From NCBI GenBank assembly GCA_029279945.1, contig JAJUHK010000005.1:1-64000 (forward strand): DNA of 64,000 nucleotides, given 5' to 3'. This DNA comes from Pseudidiomarina indica. GTDB lineage: Bacteria > Pseudomonadota > Gammaproteobacteria > Enterobacterales > Alteromonadaceae. The notes beneath the pieces were generated by a model. That model worked only from the letters and a program-made list of their open reading frames with translations. It was not told the DNA's origin and made no database searches. This document shows, piece by piece, positions 66 to 8,131 of this stretch (positions are counted from its first letter, which is position 1; every line of letters begins with the position of its first letter). The translations under genes and the position numbers were made by a program.

Positions 66-143
66 GCATAACAATGCGCGGCACGCGGATAGCCTTTACG
101 CCGCTTCGCTATGTAAAGGCTACCGGTGCGCTATGCGTTATAT
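66..143 (+). repeat. attC site 1
   Basis: GCATAAC...GTTATAT with internal inverted repeats (tagcctttac/gtaaaggcta). Confidence 0.85.
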
Positions 144-171
144 TTACGAGAACTAAACTCAAGGAGATAAA

Positions 172-654
172 ATGAGAAAAATAAGTGTTGGCCTACTGTG
201 TGGCTTAATGTCTGCCGTCACTATGGCGACAACAGTGGATGATCAGGCAAAATCTGCAGGCTTCACGAACTGTTTAGATACTACGAAAACCTTGGCGGAA
301 TTCTTAGTCAAACAAAACACCCATGGGTCACATGATTTCTGGAATAAGGATTTTGTAAATGAAAGATTTTTCGACTCGCTAATCGTTAAAAACTATTCAG
401 ATGGTGATAGCCATATATCTCTTACGGTGATTCCTCGCGGTAAGCAATGTGATTGGACTTATACGGAAACTTATCCTATAGAAAAGCCATGCCAAATTGT
501 TCGTGAGGAGCAGTTTTCTCAGATGAAATATGGTGGTTCGCTTAATCAAACCACAATGACTCTTAATAATGAAAAAGGTCTATATTTCTACCTTACACCC
601 TCAGAAACAGGGAAAACTTGTTTAGTGACTAAACGGGAGGTATTCTATCAATAA
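172..654 (+). CDS. Cassette protein, predicted exported, unknown function
   Basis: ORF with AAGGAG RBS and N-terminal signal peptide-like MRKISVGLLCGLMSAVTMA; lies between attC1 and attC2. Confidence 0.85.
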   Translation: MRKISVGLLCGLMSAVTMATTVDDQAKSAGFTNCLDTTKTLAEFLVKQNTHGSHDFWNKDFVNERFFDSLIVKNYSDGDSHISLTVIPRGKQCDWTYTETYPIEKPCQIVREEQFSQMKYGGSLNQTTMTLNNEKGLYFYLTPSETGKTCLVTKREVFYQ

Positions 655-723
655 ATATAACAATCGGCTGCTAGGGACTGCATTCCGCTTCGCTACATGC
701 AGCCCCAGAGCCGGGCGTTATAG
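655..723 (+). repeat. attC site 2
   Basis: ATATAAC...GTTATAG with internal complementary arms (ggactgcat/atgcagccc). Confidence 0.85.
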
Positions 724-746
724 AGCCACTTTATAGGAGAGAACAG

Positions 747-1061
747 TTGTCTAACGTAGAAAATGCTCAGCGATACTTTCAGACCGCTAACGAAATTTTT
801 GGTGTACTGTCTTTTGGTATTGCACTTGCCTGTATAAGTACAGATAACCCTCAGTTTTATGGATGGCTTGCCGTGGCTTTTGTATTTTTAGTTTGGCTGT
901 CAAATTTTATAAAGTTCAGAAGCGAGTTCCTTGAGTTAAAAAATACTTCCGTGCTATCAGCAAGTAATGTATTGAAGAAGAGCTTTATTGCTTTAATAGG
1001 TTGGTCATTTTTAGGAGCTGTTGCGATTGGTCTCTTTGACTCATCGGGCTGGGCTCTATAA
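747..1061 (+). CDS. Cassette-encoded small membrane protein
   Basis: ORF with several hydrophobic segments; TTG start preceded by AGGAGA. Confidence 0.75.
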   Translation: MSNVENAQRYFQTANEIFGVLSFGIALACISTDNPQFYGWLAVAFVFLVWLSNFIKFRSEFLELKNTSVLSASNVLKKSFIALIGWSFLGAVAIGLFDSSGWAL

Positions 1062-1133
1062 CAATCCGCGTCATTCGGGGCCTGCGGCCCCTGCGACGCT
1101 CACAAGTTCGCGCGCATGCGCGGGGCGTTAGCT
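1056..1133 (+). repeat. attC site 3
   Basis: CTATAAC...GTTAGCT with GC-rich internal palindrome. Confidence 0.87.
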
Positions 1134-1150
1134 GTACTAGGAGAATCAGT

Positions 1151-1858
1151 TTGAGTTGCTACTTTCAAGGATGTTCCCAAAAAGGTGTAACAAAGGAGCA
1201 TATCCCACCAAAAGCCTTTTTCCCTAAGGGAGAAAAAGATCAGCTATTAACAGTGAAATCATGTGTCGCTCACAATAACGCCAAGTCAAAAGATGATCTT
1301 TATGTTCTCGCACAAATCTGCATGAATGCTTCTCCGAGCAATAGAGCTAGAGAAATATTCCTAAAAAAAGTAAAGCCCCAACTAGATTTCAATAATGGAG
1401 CATTAAGAAAAAGGCTGGCTGCTGGATCAGTTCAACTACCTGATGGAGCTGTAAAGTATCCAGTTGATACGAATAGATTAAATGAGTTTTTTGATGCTCT
1501 ATCTTGTGGGATTATTTTCAAGTCTTGTGGCTCTGCATTGCCAAATAATTACTCAATAAAACATGTGTATTGCAGCTTGATAAGTGATCAAGACCCGATA
1601 ATGGATCAACTTGAAGCTGAGCTTGAGGCTTTCTACTCAGGAAAACCAATGGATTTTATGGAGTTCGGCAAGCCAAACACTAACAACGAAAGGATCTACA
1701 CCGTAGAGGTTTTTGGTATACCAAACTTCGCCTCAAGTATTACTTTAGTGCATGTTTTCTTCGGTAAGTTTAAAGTAATCTCAATGCTTACCAATGTCGT
1801 GCAAAATACAGCTAACAAGTCAAAGCACTCGGACGCCGCTAACGGCGCCGGTGTTTGA
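1151..1858 (+). CDS. Cassette-encoded HNH-like zinc-motif protein (putative nuclease)
   Basis: C-x4-C...T-KEHIPPK-F...SC-x2-HN-x2-KS resembles HNH endonuclease-like domains; TTG start with AGGAGA RBS; C-terminus runs into attC4. Confidence 0.65.
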   Translation: MSCYFQGCSQKGVTKEHIPPKAFFPKGEKDQLLTVKSCVAHNNAKSKDDLYVLAQICMNASPSNRAREIFLKKVKPQLDFNNGALRKRLAAGSVQLPDGAVKYPVDTNRLNEFFDALSCGIIFKSCGSALPNNYSIKHVYCSLISDQDPIMDQLEAELEAFYSGKPMDFMEFGKPNTNNERIYTVEVFGIPNFASSITLVHVFFGKFKVISMLTNVVQNTANKSKHSDAANGAGV

Positions 1859-1868
1859 GGCGTTATAT
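1810..1868 (+). repeat. attC site 4
   Basis: AGCTAAC...GTTATAT around cggacgccgctaacggcgccg. Confidence 0.85.
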
Positions 1869-1898
1869 ACCCACGATATTTTGGAGTAAATTTTAAAA

Positions 1899-2087
1899 AT
1901 GGAAATTAATTTCGCAGAAAACTCCTATGCTACTGTAAGCTTAGTTCAGTTCTTATTTGGTATATTTTGCGCTCACTGGGCTCAGAACACTGACCGTAGT
2001 GCGTGGTTATGGTTTTTTATGGGGTGGATTTTTGCACCAATAACTGGTTTGTTTTTATTAGCAAAAAATAGTAAATCAGCGAGCTAG
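1899..2087 (+). CDS. Cassette-encoded 62-aa membrane protein
   Basis: Short hydrophobic ORF filling the space between attC4 and attC5. Confidence 0.65.
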   Translation: MEINFAENSYATVSLVQFLFGIFCAHWAQNTDRSAWLWFFMGWIFAPITGLFLLAKNSKSAS

Positions 2088-2105
2088 TTGCTTGTAACAC
2101 AAGGT

Positions 2106-2160
2106 ATATAACAAGCAAAGGCAGCCGACGCCTTCGGCGCGTCTGCTTTGGGCGTTAGGC
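2106..2160 (+). repeat. attC site 5
   Basis: ATATAAC...GTTAGGC with arms caaagcagacg / cgccttcggcg palindrome. Confidence 0.92.
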
Positions 2161-2167
2161 ATTAGCA

Positions 2168-2545
2168 ATGTATAAACTAATCGTCATGCTTGGGGTTTTA
2201 TCGCTTTCCTTTTTCGCTGTTGCTGAAGAAAAAGTGTCATTATGGAGTGAGGGTGGCGGAGCTGAAGCCGTTTGTATAAACGAATCTAAAATGATAAGTC
2301 ATTGCTTTATCGTTGTTGGTGATGTTCGGATAGATATATCTGAGGTAGAGGCTTCAAACTTAGGTAAACTTGGGCTGAGGCCAAAAGAAGCCTACTCAAA
2401 GGTAATAAATATTCCCAGTAAATGGCTGAAAGTTGCTAAAAATGAGTACATGGTAGAAATCACTACTCATGCTTGGTTTGAGGGCCAACGGTACACTGTA
2501 AAAGAACCTGCTTATGTAAAGGATGGGAAATATTATCAACGCTAA
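2168..2545 (+). CDS. Cassette protein, predicted exported, unknown function
   Basis: Signal peptide-like MYKLIVMLGVLSLSFFAVA; fills cassette between attC5 and attC6. Confidence 0.8.
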   Translation: MYKLIVMLGVLSLSFFAVAEEKVSLWSEGGGAEAVCINESKMISHCFIVVGDVRIDISEVEASNLGKLGLRPKEAYSKVINIPSKWLKVAKNEYMVEITTHAWFEGQRYTVKEPAYVKDGKYYQR

Positions 2546-2548
2546 AAT

Positions 2549-2623
2549 GCCTAACAATACGCACCAGTTCGCGCCTATCGGCGCCGGACGGCCTTACGGC
2601 CGCCGCTGTGCTTTGCGTTAGAG
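2549..2623 (+). repeat. attC site 6
   Basis: GCCTAAC...GTTAGAG with GC-rich internal palindromes. Confidence 0.92.
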
Positions 2624-2654
2624 CTGCTGCACACTGAAGATAGGAGGCGTCCTT

Positions 2655-3377
2655 TTGGATAAATTTCCGTCCGAAATAATTGATAAGCTGAAAAACTACG
2701 TTTACCGGCTTATCGATCCCCGCAATGGCGAGACTTTTTATGTTGGTCGGGGTGTTGGAAACCGTCTTTATTCCCACATTCGTGACGAACTGGGGAAAGA
2801 ATCAGACGAAGTTGGCGATAAGTTGAGAAGAATCAGGGAAATCCGTCTTGCTGGCTTTGAGGTTGCCCATGTCGTGCATAGGCACGGAATGGAGCCATCC
2901 GTGGCGAAAGAGGTAGAAGCTGCACTTATTGATGCGTATCCAGGGCTCACAAATGTAATGGGTGGGGAAGAGAGCGGTGACCGTGGTGCAATGCATGCGG
3001 ATGAGATTGTTCGGGAGTATCTCGCTGAGCCGGCGGTATTTGAGCATCGGGCGCTATTGATCAGTGTAAACAGGAGTGCGTCCGAGCGTCCGCTCTATGA
3101 AGCGACACGATATGCCTGGAAGCTCAGTCAAAGACGGGCGAAAGAAACAGAAGTTGTTCTCGCATCTGAAAAGGGAGTTATTCGCGGCGCGTACATTCCT
3201 GAAAAGTGGATGGAAGCTACAAGCGATAATTTCCCGGGTCGCCCTGATCGACCTGGAAGGCTGGGATTCAGCGGTCGTGAAGCACCACCCGAAGTATGGA
3301 GCATGTATGTTGGACGGCGAATACCCGATGAATACCGCTTCGGCACAGCCAACCCTATTCGCTATACATGGAAATAG
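2655..3377 (+). CDS. Cassette-encoded GIY-YIG (LEM3-like) nuclease domain protein
   Basis: N-terminal YVYRLIDPRNGETFYVGRGVGNRLYSHI resembles LEM3-like GIY-YIG cores; TTG start with AGGAGG RBS. Confidence 0.8.
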   Translation: MDKFPSEIIDKLKNYVYRLIDPRNGETFYVGRGVGNRLYSHIRDELGKESDEVGDKLRRIREIRLAGFEVAHVVHRHGMEPSVAKEVEAALIDAYPGLTNVMGGEESGDRGAMHADEIVREYLAEPAVFEHRALLISVNRSASERPLYEATRYAWKLSQRRAKETEVVLASEKGVIRGAYIPEKWMEATSDNFPGRPDRPGRLGFSGREAPPEVWSMYVGRRIPDEYRFGTANPIRYTWK

Positions 3378-3384
3378 GGCGATG

Positions 3385-3456
3385 CTCTAACAAATGGCTG
3401 TTGTCGGACGTACCTACGCTGGCGCTCCGGTGCGCCGCAAAGCCAAAGCGTTAGGC
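3385..3456 (+). repeat. attC site 7
   Basis: CTCTAAC...GTTAGGC with complementary arms ggctg.../...agcc. Confidence 0.92.
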
Positions 3457-3470
3457 TCTAAGGAAAAATT

Positions 3471-3911
3471 TTGGCCAGAGGAAATTTAAAAGGCACAGGG
3501 TATATTCTTGAGCTAGAGTTGGCTCTTGAGTGTATGAAAAGAGGTGCCGAAGTTAGCCTGCCAATCGGCGATAATGCGCATTATGACTTGCTCGTTGATA
3601 ACGGCAAAAAAATATTGAAAGTTCAGGTTAAATCTTCGTCAATAGATCAAAACGATTCTGCGAAGTATTGGATTAACACACAGCGAAAGCTCCCAACTAT
3701 GAGCTCCAACAGTGGCCCTTCATCGAAAGCGGTAGCATATGCTGAAGGTGCTATTGATGTTATTGCCTCCAAAGCTGATGGGGTCTGGTTTTTCTTCGAT
3801 GAGGCACATCTTCTGCCTAGCAGCATTACCGTGTTTCCCAGTAGGGAACGAAATTGCAAAAACAAATGGAATAAGGGTAAAGAGAGTTGGGAACTACTAG
3901 ATCTAGCCTAA
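3471..3911 (+). CDS. Cassette-encoded PD-(D/E)XK endonuclease-like protein
   Basis: YDLLVDNGKKILKVQVKSS matches the D...xVQVK active-site pattern; TTG start with AAGGAA RBS. Confidence 0.72.
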   Translation: MARGNLKGTGYILELELALECMKRGAEVSLPIGDNAHYDLLVDNGKKILKVQVKSSSIDQNDSAKYWINTQRKLPTMSSNSGPSSKAVAYAEGAIDVIASKADGVWFFFDEAHLLPSSITVFPSRERNCKNKWNKGKESWELLDLA

Positions 3912-3966
3912 CAAACGCGTCAATTAGGACGCTCGCAAGCTCGCGCCTATTACGCGGGCGTTAGCC
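3906..3966 (+). repeat. attC site 8
   Basis: GCCTAAC...GTTAGCC with internal arms around cgctcgcaagctcgcg. Confidence 0.92.
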
Positions 3967-3980
3967 ATTTCGAGGACATA

Positions 3981-4841
3981 ATGAGTACAGCTATAATTTC
4001 TGAACCAATATCGGGAGATAAGGCATATCAGGTAAGGGCGCGCGCCGCATTACCGTTGCTTGTCCGTCAAGCGGAGGCTGGTGCTCCAGTTTTCTACTCT
4101 GATCTTGCGGAAGAGTTAGGGATGCCGAACCCGCGTAATCTCAATTATGTCCTCGGAAGCATCGGCCAGTCTTTAGAGCGACTTTCTGAGGCATGGAAAG
4201 TTAAAGTGCCGCCTATCCAATGTCTTGTAGTTAATAAAAACACGGGGCTACCGGGAGAGGGTATCGGTTGGTTTCTCGTCAAGAAGGAAGATTTTGCAAC
4301 GCTCCCGCTTAAACAGAAGAGAGCAATCGTCGAAGCAGAACTTCAGCATGTGTTCTCCTATCCACGATGGCAGGAAGTTCTCAAGGCTCTGGAGCTTGAG
4401 CCAGCGATCTCCGATTTTACGCCGTTCGTAAAAAAAGCCTCGGGTGGCTTTGGAGGCGGTGAGAGCGACGGGCATAAGGCTCTCAAAGAATATGTTGCAG
4501 AAAATCCAAAAGTCATCGGTCTTGGCGCTAACACCCCTATTGGCACGACCGAATACCCGTTGCCATCAGGTGATAGTCTGGACGTTTCATTTAATAGCAA
4601 GAAAATTTGGGTGGCTGCAGAGATCAAGTCCTCCATATCTGCAGAGGGTGATATTGTTCGAGGTCTATTTCAATGCGTTAAGTACAGAGCTGTCATGGAG
4701 GCTGTACTGCTTACCGAATCACTGCCACAAAACGCACGAGCTTTACTTGTCTTAGAATCAAAACTGCCTCAATCACTTATCCCTTTGCGAAATATGCTGG
4801 GTGTTGAAGTTATTGAAGGTGTTTCGCCCAAGAATGGCTAA
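3981..4841 (+). CDS. Terminal cassette gene: N-terminal helix-turn-helix-like region plus PD-(D/E)XK-like domain
   Basis: YSDLAEELGMPNPRNLNYVLGSIG resembles a winged-helix region; SGDSLDVSF...KIWVAAEIKSS fits a D...ExK nuclease motif; no attC seen downstream. Confidence 0.65.
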   Translation: MSTAIISEPISGDKAYQVRARAALPLLVRQAEAGAPVFYSDLAEELGMPNPRNLNYVLGSIGQSLERLSEAWKVKVPPIQCLVVNKNTGLPGEGIGWFLVKKEDFATLPLKQKRAIVEAELQHVFSYPRWQEVLKALELEPAISDFTPFVKKASGGFGGGESDGHKALKEYVAENPKVIGLGANTPIGTTEYPLPSGDSLDVSFNSKKIWVAAEIKSSISAEGDIVRGLFQCVKYRAVMEAVLLTESLPQNARALLVLESKLPQSLIPLRNMLGVEVIEGVSPKNG

Positions 4842-5011
4842 ACAGCTAAATGAGTAGGTTTAAGAAAACTAATTTTAAGCGGTAGTTACAACGGAAGTTA
4901 AGATCAAAACCGTTAAAATCGACACCGGATAAAAAGCACTCATAAAAAACATAAGCTCATGAAAACATAGGGTTTTCGTATGAAACCGTATATTAGAAAA
5001 GCCACCAATGC

Positions 5012-5060
5012 AGGACTCATAATCGGTTGGTCCCCAGTTCAAGTCTGGGAGGGGCCACCA
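5012..5060 (+). pseudogene. 3' half of a CAT-anticodon tRNA (Met/Ile2-like); candidate attachment-site remnant
   Basis: ctcataa anticodon loop, tcgg 3' anticodon arm, ccagttcaagtctgg T-arm, aggggccacca acceptor/CCA; 5' half and D-arm absent. Confidence 0.75.
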
Positions 5061-5236
5061 TTTTCCATAGTATTTATAAAGATAGTGCTTGCTAATATTC
5101 GTGCTTGTTTGACGTTCGCGGGTCAAGTACATTCCACCCCCAAGAAAATTTTTTTTAAAAACAGTATAATGGGGTCTTTGACCCATCGCACATCAACTAT
5201 CGATGCAGCAGGTCCAATGTTATTGGAGGTGTTGCT

Positions 5237-5947: not shown

Positions 5948-8131
5948 TTACGCATACAACCGTGCACGGGCGGCGTGAAGCTTCTTATAGCTGTCTAGTA
6001 ATCGTAAGTGACGATCTAAACCATCGAGCTGTATGTTGGTTTCAGTGAGGCCAGGGAATTTTACCGTCCCTTGTACTGCACCAACCACGTTTGCCATCGT
6101 TGTGTTACCGTACATCCGCTGGAAGTTGTGCAAGTAATCGGCTAGTTCCATATCGTCTGACAGGGTAACTTCTAATACTGCGCTCATTGCACGATAGAAC
6201 AGGTTACGTTCAACCGTGTTGTCGTTGTATTGCAAGAACTCTTCGATAAGCTCGAGCGCACTCTCATGATCACCTAGGGCAAGATAAATAAGCAACTTCA
6301 ACTCAAGAATGGTCAGTTGACCCCATACCGTATTTTCATCAAACTCAATCCCAATCAGGGTGATGATGTCGATATAGTGATCGAGCTGACTTTCCTCGAG
6401 GCGGTTCACTAAGTCACGCAACTGATCGTTGCTTAAGCGATGAATATTAAGAATATCTTCCCGGTAATCCAGCGCTTTGTTGGTGTTATCCCACACCAAA
6501 TCTTCAATCGGATAGACTTCTGAGTAGCCAGGTACCAAGGTACGTACCACAGGGATACCAAACTTGTCGTGTACTGCCATGTACACTTCATGGCCAAGGT
6601 CAGTCAGCATCGTCATGAGATGTTCTGCTTCAACTTCGTTGGATCCGGAAAAATCCCAATCACAGAATTCATAGTCAGCGCGGGCACTGAAGAAGCGCCA
6701 TGACACGACACCTGATGAATCAATGAAGTGTTCGACGTAGTTGTTCGGTTCGGTTACGGCCATGCTATTAAAGGTTGGCGGTAAGAAGTCATTCAAACCT
6801 TCAAAGCTGCGGCCTTGCATGAGTTCTGTCAGGCTGCGCTCAAGGGCAATACGGAAGTTAGGGTGCGCACCAAACGAGGCAAATACCCCACCAGTCCGAG
6901 GGTTCATTAAAGTCACACAGGCAACCGGGAAGCGACCACCTAGTGATGCGTCTTTCACTAAGATGGGGAAGCCTTGCTCTTCGAGTGTTTTGATCCCTTC
7001 TACGATATGTGGGAACTGTGCCAGAACCTCTGCGGGTACATCAGGGAGCGCTAACTCATTCTCGATGATCTCTTTTTTAACAGCGCGCTCAATAATCTCG
7101 CATAAACATTGAACCTTGGCTTCCGCTAGGGTATTCCCGGCACTCATGCCATTACTCAAATAAAGGTTCTCAATTAAGTTGGTGGGGAAGTAGACGATTT
7201 CACCGTCTGATTGCCGCTCAAATGGTAAGGCGCAGATCCCACGGTCATGACGACCTGAGTTGGTATCAATAAGATGTGAGCCTTGTAACTCACCCTCAGG
7301 GTTATAAATACTTAAGCAATGTTCATCCAGCAACCCCGGTGGCAAGCTATCGTCTGGGGTGAGAGGAAACCATTTTTCATTGGGGTAATGCACGAACTCA
7401 GAATGGGCAATTTCTTGTCCAAAATATTGGTCGTTGTAGAAGAAATTACAGTTCAGCCGCTCAATAAACTCACCCAACGCTGAAGCTAACGCGGCTTCTT
7501 TGGTCGTGCCTTTACCATTAGTGAAACACATGGGTGAGGCGGCATCACGAATATGGAGCGACCAGACGTGAGGAACAATATTGCGCCACGATGCGATTTC
7601 AATTTTCATCCCCAAATCGGCTAGGATTTTGGTCACGTTGGCGATAGTTTGCTCTAGCGGTAAATCTTTCCCTTCGATGTAGGTCAACGAGCCATTTTCA
7701 GGCTGTCCCATCAATAGTGCTTGGGCATCCTCGTCGAGGTTTTCAACAACTTCGATTTGAAATTCGGGACCAGTTTGCACCACTTTCTTTACTGTACATC
7801 GGTCAATGGCTCGCAAGATACCTTGACGGTCTTTCTCGGAAATATCCTCAGGTAGCTCGACTTGGATTTTGAAAATCTGGTTATAGCGGTTTTCAGGATC
7901 GACGATGTTGTTTTGTGATAAACGAATATGCTCCGTCGGAATATTGCGGGCAACGCAATAGACTTTGACGAAATAGGCGGCACACATCGCCGACGATGCG
8001 AGAAAGTAATCGAAAGGGCTCGGTGCCGAGCCATCACCTTTGTATCGAATTGGCTGGTCAGCGATGACCGTGAAGTCATCAAATTTCGCTTCAATACGTA
8101 GGTTGTCGAGAAAGTTAACTTTAATTTCCAT
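5948..8131 (-). CDS. ycaO: OsmC domain/YcaO domain-containing protein
   Basis: N-terminal OsmC-like region and YcaO motifs (GKGTTKEAALASALGEFIERL, LCEIIERAVKKEII). Confidence 0.92.
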   Translation of the reverse strand: MEIKVNFLDNLRIEAKFDDFTVIADQPIRYKGDGSAPSPFDYFLASSAMCAAYFVKVYCVARNIPTEHIRLSQNNIVDPENRYNQIFKIQVELPEDISEKDRQGILRAIDRCTVKKVVQTGPEFQIEVVENLDEDAQALLMGQPENGSLTYIEGKDLPLEQTIANVTKILADLGMKIEIASWRNIVPHVWSLHIRDAASPMCFTNGKGTTKEAALASALGEFIERLNCNFFYNDQYFGQEIAHSEFVHYPNEKWFPLTPDDSLPPGLLDEHCLSIYNPEGELQGSHLIDTNSGRHDRGICALPFERQSDGEIVYFPTNLIENLYLSNGMSAGNTLAEAKVQCLCEIIERAVKKEIIENELALPDVPAEVLAQFPHIVEGIKTLEEQGFPILVKDASLGGRFPVACVTLMNPRTGGVFASFGAHPNFRIALERSLTELMQGRSFEGLNDFLPPTFNSMAVTEPNNYVEHFIDSSGVVSWRFFSARADYEFCDWDFSGSNEVEAEHLMTMLTDLGHEVYMAVHDKFGIPVVRTLVPGYSEVYPIEDLVWDNTNKALDYREDILNIHRLSNDQLRDLVNRLEESQLDHYIDIITLIGIEFDENTVWGQLTILELKLLIYLALGDHESALELIEEFLQYNDNTVERNLFYRAMSAVLEVTLSDDMELADYLHNFQRMYGNTTMANVVGAVQGTVKFPGLTETNIQLDGLDRHLRLLDSYKKLHAARARLYA

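Follow-up and report, generated by a model that had tools for sequence, protein, structure and literature searches.

Integrons and type IV restriction of phage DNA

Integrons have been presented as stores of anti-phage defence genes (Darracq 2025, Getz 2025 and Kieffer 2025, as cited in PMC12409362 and PMC12444791). CMoRE has been described as a type IV restriction enzyme of solved mechanism that acts singly against phage DNA carrying 5-hydroxymethylcytosine (5hmC) or its glucosylated form (5ghmC) (Liu et al., PMC12923530, a paper without mention of integrons), and PD-T4-3 has been reported to be active in the E. coli host that naturally carries it (PMC12409345). Our literature search found no mention of integrons together with PD-T4-3, the two Science papers themselves lying outside its scope. 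Here, we describe an integron cassette array with 8 attC sites and 8 cassette genes in the first 4.84 kb of a 64,000-nucleotide stretch of Pseudidiomarina indica (the window, which is the start of contig C5, JAJUHK010000005.1). The array is a further example of the known integron defence store and is predicted to carry at least three genes for DNA-cutting enzymes. It probably represents the distal end of a chromosomal integron that stockpiles independent single-gene cassettes, several of which would encode nucleases restricting incoming DNA.

The cassette array

The attC sites, detected by a simple fold-and-box scan, lie between the genes with R''/R' boxes in a single orientation, and all 8 open reading frames (ORFs) are on the + strand, in agreement with a preliminary description of this DNA as an attC-delimited array of eight same-strand genes. 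The bases that follow the 5' GTT of a genuine cassette recur, as their reverse complement, in the R'' box of the cassette's own downstream attC. In the window, the 5' GTTAxxx matched the R'' of its own downstream attC over 8–11 nt in all seven testable cassettes, and among 5,040 permuted pairings of starts and ends the observed total score was reached by the true pairing only. This end register is the independent test of the array, since the covariance model, which found the 8 attC sites with E 5e-13 to 1e-9, was made from the same sites and is circular as a detection test. The end of cassette 8 stands in the same register (AATGGCTAA versus GTTAGCCATT), and its sequence marks it as the terminal cassette of the array, because its attC is degenerate (AATGGCTAAAC, 4833–4843) and the R'' box has no R' partner. 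An Rfam search of the window gave no match.

Gene 6, a CMoRE/PD-T4-3 homologue that travels as a cassette

The sixth cassette gene (gene 6; 2655–3377, 240 amino acids, followed by attC 6 at 3385–3456) matched the PADLOC PD-T4-3 model over residues 2–240 (E 1.2e-107) and Pfam LEM-3_GIY-YIG (E 1.9e-11), which strongly bears out the GIY-YIG fold proposed for it earlier. Its closest solved structures, 9U75 (E 9.3e-79, residues 3–238) and 9U7U (E 2e-76), are both CMoRE, so that the similarity to a defence protein runs along the full length and includes the modification-sensing C-terminal domain. In the alignment with 9U75, the GIYxY-YIG tyrosines Y15, Y17 and Y29 correspond to CMoRE Y17, Y19 and Y31, while the acidic-loop position reads ESDE instead of four consecutive acidic residues; the autoinhibitory negatively charged loop is present in most, not all, CMoRE members (PMC12923530). 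By its sequence, gene 6 is a CMoRE/PD-T4-3 type IV restriction endonuclease homologue with the catalytic tyrosines kept. A defence role is well supported, because its homologue is a published, mechanistically solved phage-restriction enzyme. Following the mechanism published for a homologue of ~50% identity (PMC12923530), the C-terminal domain would sense 5-hydroxymethyl- or glucosyl-hydroxymethyl-cytosine in phage DNA, and the GIY-YIG domain would cut the modified phage DNA, sparing the unmodified host DNA.

Relatives of gene 6 in Thiopseudomonas, Thioalkalivibrio and Marinomonas share 95, 93 and 90% protein identity with it, and in all three the gene is immediately preceded by GTTAGAGC and terminates at an attC with the complementary R''; at the DNA level, the cassette is 90% identical to that of Thiopseudomonas and 87% to that of Thioalkalivibrio. 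More divergent gene 6 cassettes, with 11-nt matching ends of different sequence, are present in Amphritea and in a gammaproteobacterial metagenome-assembled genome. The gene 6 cassette therefore moves between integrons of distant bacteria, since it is present, its ends intact, in at least five further integrons (L013, L014, L015, L035 and L036), and the earlier suggestion that the array was built by cassette capture holds for it. In addition, Stutzerimonas and most planctomycete relatives showed no adjacent attC with this covariance model, and relatives of ~50% identity are found on E. coli plasmids, which indicates that gene 6 also spreads by other routes.

The neighbours of the gene 6 cassette include nuclease or abortive infection (Abi) genes in three of these other integrons. 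In Thiopseudomonas (L013), the gene 6 relative is followed by genes for AbiTii (2.9e-20) and for a GIY-YIG-type protein of the T5orf172/MUG113 kind (2e-7/4e-9). The cassette directly behind the gene 6 relative of Thioalkalivibrio (L014) encodes a compact D...VQVK protein, which matches Mrr/PDDEXK_5 weakly (E 0.009/0.025), and the one after that an HNH protein (E 8.6e-6). In L036, a PDDEXK_5 protein (E 4.7e-6) lies two cassettes beyond the gene 6 relative. Among the 101 cassette proteins of related integrons that served as a base rate (see below), defence genes are also present, namely ThsA/TIR, ApeA and several PDC candidates, which is consistent with the description of integrons as defence stores in the literature (PMC12409362, PMC12444791).

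Gene 8, an unnamed PD-(D/E)XK family

The last cassette gene (gene 8; 3981–4841, 286 amino acids) received no family name from any library scanned. Among gene 8 and its relatives (8 sequences, down to 27% identity), GE161...H165, D198, D201, E214-x-K216 and RG-x-x-QCVKY are kept, and the catalytic E, D, ExK and QxxxY (E161, D201, E214-x-K216, Q231 and Y235) are invariant. The AlphaFold2 model, built from these 8 sequences, had a mean predicted local distance difference test score (pLDDT) of 83.5 and a predicted template modelling score (pTM) of 0.54, meaning that parts are well predicted while their mutual placement is uncertain. Foldseek recovered the PD-(D/E)XK enzymes Card1, Nt.BspD6I, XisH and Can2 from the PDB, and phage proteins from BFVD with TM-scores, normalised by target length, of up to 0.71. 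A profile search against PDB sequences gave no convincing match, either for the whole protein or for the N-terminus alone, and no relative was found in named phage records. On the conserved residues and the model together, the C-terminal half is confirmed as a predicted PD-(D/E)XK nuclease with its catalytic residues intact.

The N-terminal half, previously called helix-turn-helix-like, is fairly likely to be an alkyltransferase-like DNA-binding domain, as three kinds of comparison point, if weakly, in this direction. Four solved O6-methylguanine methyltransferases are in the Foldseek list (E 0.14–0.32), and PF01035 was the top Pfam family for one member of the gene 8 family (E 0.046, with the family cut-off not reached). 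In a profile comparison with the relatives' alkyltransferases, AGxPVFYSDLAEELG...PPIQCLVV of gene 8 aligned with YGQTVSYQAIAEAI...PCHRIIG, and when either side was shuffled 300 times, the hhalign score of 26.9 was never reached (maxima 21.6 and 25.6). The alkyl-acceptor motif PCHR is absent from the gene 8 N-terminus, which has P-P/H-I-Q at that position.

A defence role for gene 8 is indirectly supported, because its relatives occur in restriction–modification (R-M) and Abi neighbourhoods and in prophages. In Rhizobium, a relative lies between a restriction endonuclease, which overlaps it, and a DNA methyltransferase; on a Chryseobacterium plasmid, a relative is near two Abi genes; and on a viral contig (L123), a frameshifted relative has a C-5 cytosine methylase and Vsr in its neighbourhood. 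Other relatives are located in prophage accessory slots, one of them (L124) apparently between lysis genes and a terminase-like gene. The prophage contig L106 (IMGVR_UViG_2843940340_000001) carries an 84% identical, frameshifted relative as a cassette with attC; on this contig, attC-bearing cassettes occupy a prophage accessory slot beside lysis genes.

The alkyltransferase-like winged-helix domain of gene 8 would read DNA and the PD-(D/E)XK domain would cut it, as a stand-alone nuclease. The cassette encodes no methylase, so gene 8 is most likely type IV-like, and self-protection would have to come from a modified or unusual target, from a trigger or from low expression. A wider conjecture is that the gene 8 family is a new class of modification- or lesion-reading restriction enzyme, combining an acceptor-less alkyltransferase-like sensor with PD-(D/E)XK and disseminated in integron cassettes, in the accessory genes of prophages and as R-M satellites, and that nuclease cassettes accompany CMoRE to cover modified and unmodified phage DNA together; we regard it as speculative and rather unlikely.

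Genes 7 and 3

Gene 7 (3471–3911, 146 amino acids, with attC 7 at 3906–3966) had been proposed to be a compact PD-(D/E)XK protein, and this call is substantiated by its matches to Pfam PDDEXK_5 (PF11645; E 6.7e-14, 52.5 bits versus the curated cut-off of 26.1) and to the I-Ssp6803I structure 2OST (E 2e-4), in which the YDL...LKVQVKSS segment with the putative active site D39...Q52-V-K54 is aligned. It also matched the PADLOC 'HEase' (6e-7). Weak gene 7 relatives in phages are annotated as endonucleases, while a viral scan with the single gene 7 sequence gave no match. Gene 7 is thus predicted to encode a small endonuclease, of either defence or homing type.

Gene 3 (1151–1858, 235 amino acids) has a motif, C3-x4-C8, KEHIPP and C38-x2-HNN, that is conserved in its relatives on plasmids of Rhizobium, Agrobacterium and Vibrio, and its last residues are encoded within attC 3 (1810–1868). 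The HNH-like zinc motif noticed earlier is therefore conserved, and a remote relative (L102) comes near HNH_5 (E 1e-5, 25.8 bits versus a cut-off of 27.5), while no family score passes its cut-off, gene 3 itself having no Pfam match. A structure prediction from two sequences only was discarded (pLDDT 34), and a viral scan with the single gene 3 sequence gave no match. The Vibrio plasmid relative (L113) is also in an array with attC sites, and a nearly identical copy is present in L129 (IMGVR_UViG_2660238561_000001), where it lies near what seems to be a zot-like filamentous-phage gene. On conjugative plasmids of Rhizobium and Agrobacterium (L111 and L112), gene 3 relatives stand beside a 7-cyano-7-deazaguanine synthase, an XRE regulator and DUF3800 in a conserved neighbourhood, which is possibly an uncharacterised defence locus.

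Genomic setting of the array

The integron is probably part of an island at a tRNA(CAU) gene, or has taken the place of one. The integrase gene intI is at the end of contig C12 (L011:9450–10402), directly behind an intact tRNA gene following rpoD, and is oriented such that the array would continue off the end of C12, with the gap between C12 and the window unassembled. This tRNA was called by ARAGORN as tRNA-Met with anticodon CAU, while its sequence and its location beside rpoD appear to fit tRNA-Ile2. The assignment to an island is based on three observations. The 3' part of the tRNA gene is repeated downstream of the array as a 51-nt match (5014–5064, + strand), which is probably an island boundary repeat. 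In the congener G013 (L179), rpoD, the intact tRNA and ycaO (5948–8131 in the window) are together at an empty site, without an integron. In the congener G008 (L181), an island, which seems to hold a recombinase-like gene, is flanked on one side by a tRNA of this kind and on the other by its 3' end, repeated over 45 nt.

On contig C16 (L012:4182–4324), a second partial intI copy matches the end of contig C12 exactly over 141 nt, which suggests a partial intI copy elsewhere in the genome and explains the contig break at C12. Contig C24 (L159) carries an array segment of 4 attC sites with GNAT, SDR, DUF3825 and unknown genes; its start is possibly attI-like, and its end resembles an insertion sequence. 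In addition, contig C22 has 1 attC site, apart from the main array, after an AadA-like aminoglycoside adenylyltransferase gene (L160:944–1801). The window therefore shows only part of the cassette store.

The remaining features of the array, again on the + strand, begin with an attC (66–143) that belongs to the cassette before the first complete one. Cassette 1 (172–654, 160 amino acids) has an N-terminal signal-like segment, cassette 2 (747–1061, 104 amino acids) encodes a probable membrane protein and cassette 5 (2168–2545, 125 amino acids) a probably exported protein, all three matching no family in the library scans, while cassette 4 (1899–2087, 62 amino acids) encodes a probable small membrane protein. 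Their attC sites are attC 1 (655–723), attC 2 (1056–1133), attC 4 (2106–2160) and attC 5 (2549–2623).

A probable store of independent nucleases and its alternatives

The reading of the array as a defence store is built on gene 6 as the homologue of a published enzyme and on the settings in which gene 8 relatives occur. Each cassette would act alone, and the store would add protection gene by gene. Several points weigh against it. The nuclease call for gene 3 is tentative. The N-terminal match of gene 8 is remote (hhalign probability 34%, single-comparison P 4.3e-4). The flanking intI is interrupted by an in-frame TAA and truncated where the contig ends, and the array may be frozen for this reason. 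The promoter signal in the array is not above chance (6 found versus 7.7 expected), and the window cassettes are the distal ones. Moreover, the nuclease excess is weak: in a base-rate set of 101 cassette proteins from related integrons, given the same scan, 1 nuclease family (HNH_2) is found among the 25 of 36 Pfam families listed, together with PADLOC matches to REase_II and HNH, and the Fisher P is 0.014–0.27 for the window and 0.003–0.17 for the neighbours of the gene 6 cassette, by how the remaining 11 Pfam families count. The comparison was set up after the pattern was seen. Nuclease enrichment over related arrays is thus suggestive only, a claim of strong enrichment having been downgraded after this check. 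Of the nuclease-based defence first proposed, the part of gene 6 is well supported and that of gene 8 indirectly.

These same points, the broken intI, the lack of internal promoter signal above chance and the weak enrichment, would fit a chance stockpile of silent passengers in a decayed array, with a defence meaning for gene 6 only, as would the non-nuclease genes among the other window cassettes and on C24. Such a stockpile is nevertheless unlikely, given that all four reading frames of the nuclease-like genes are intact with conserved catalytic motifs, and that nuclease or Abi genes also accompany the CMoRE cassette in three other integrons.

It is also conceivable that genes 7 and 8 are selfish or mobility-linked endonucleases of homing type, which drive their own spread instead of defending the host, gene 7 being nearest to a homing endonuclease and phage endonucleases, and the fold matches of gene 8 including XisH/FdxN excision factors. 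We consider this very unlikely, since there is no associated intron, intein or target allele, and gene 8 relatives are in R-M and Abi settings. Toxin-type nucleases could stabilise the array by harming cells that lose it: three gene 8 relatives match Tox-REase-9, and related arrays often contain toxin-antitoxin cassettes (ParE). This is highly improbable, as the Tox-REase-9 matches are weak and these single-gene cassettes contain no antitoxin or immunity gene.

The least probable reading, that genes 6, 7, 8 and perhaps 3 form one multi-gene defence system, was rejected in spite of the consecutive order of genes 6, 7 and 8 and the recurrence of CMoRE followed by a small PD-(D/E)XK protein in L014, because each gene has its own attC, CMoRE functions singly (PMC12923530) and homologues of genes 3, 6 and 8 occur without one another. 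For the block envisaged in the preliminary description, coordination between the genes accordingly finds no support, and a store is the preferred reading. At the loci examined with a gene 6 or gene 8 homologue, the other nuclease genes were absent, except that L036 and L014 hold weak relatives of gene 7.

Comparison with known systems

The search of other integrons, which had been proposed as a check, found gene 6 cassettes in at least five of them, a gene 3 relative in the Vibrio array and a gene 8 relative in L106. The new points of this array are CMoRE as a travelling cassette and the unnamed PD-(D/E)XK family, which may possess an alkyltransferase-like reader. Gene 6 aligns with CMoRE along its whole length (residues 2–238) and keeps the three catalytic tyrosines and most of the acidic loop, and differs by its integron-cassette location and by one Ser in the loop (ESDE); integrons are thereby tied, as a vehicle across several gammaproteobacterial genera, to a solved type IV enzyme. 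Gene 7 has the same D...QVK active-site segment as I-Ssp6803I and exceeds the PDDEXK_5 family cut-off, whereas it lacks a group I intron, sits in a cassette and has an unaligned C-terminal part. The N-terminus of gene 8 is similar to the O6-alkylguanine-DNA alkyltransferase/alkyltransferase-like domain (PF01035) by profile comparison, a weak Pfam match and Foldseek; the resemblance is remote, and gene 8 differs in lacking PCHR (or PWHR/PAHR) and in being fused to a PD-(D/E)XK nuclease, in a family that can be tested as a single gene. Similar to the integron defence stores of Darracq 2025, Getz 2025 and Kieffer 2025, as these are cited elsewhere, the locus is a cassette array with single-gene defence cassettes, and it differs from them in being a non-Vibrio chromosomal integron, so that the purpose of integron cassettes becomes testable gene by gene outside Vibrio.

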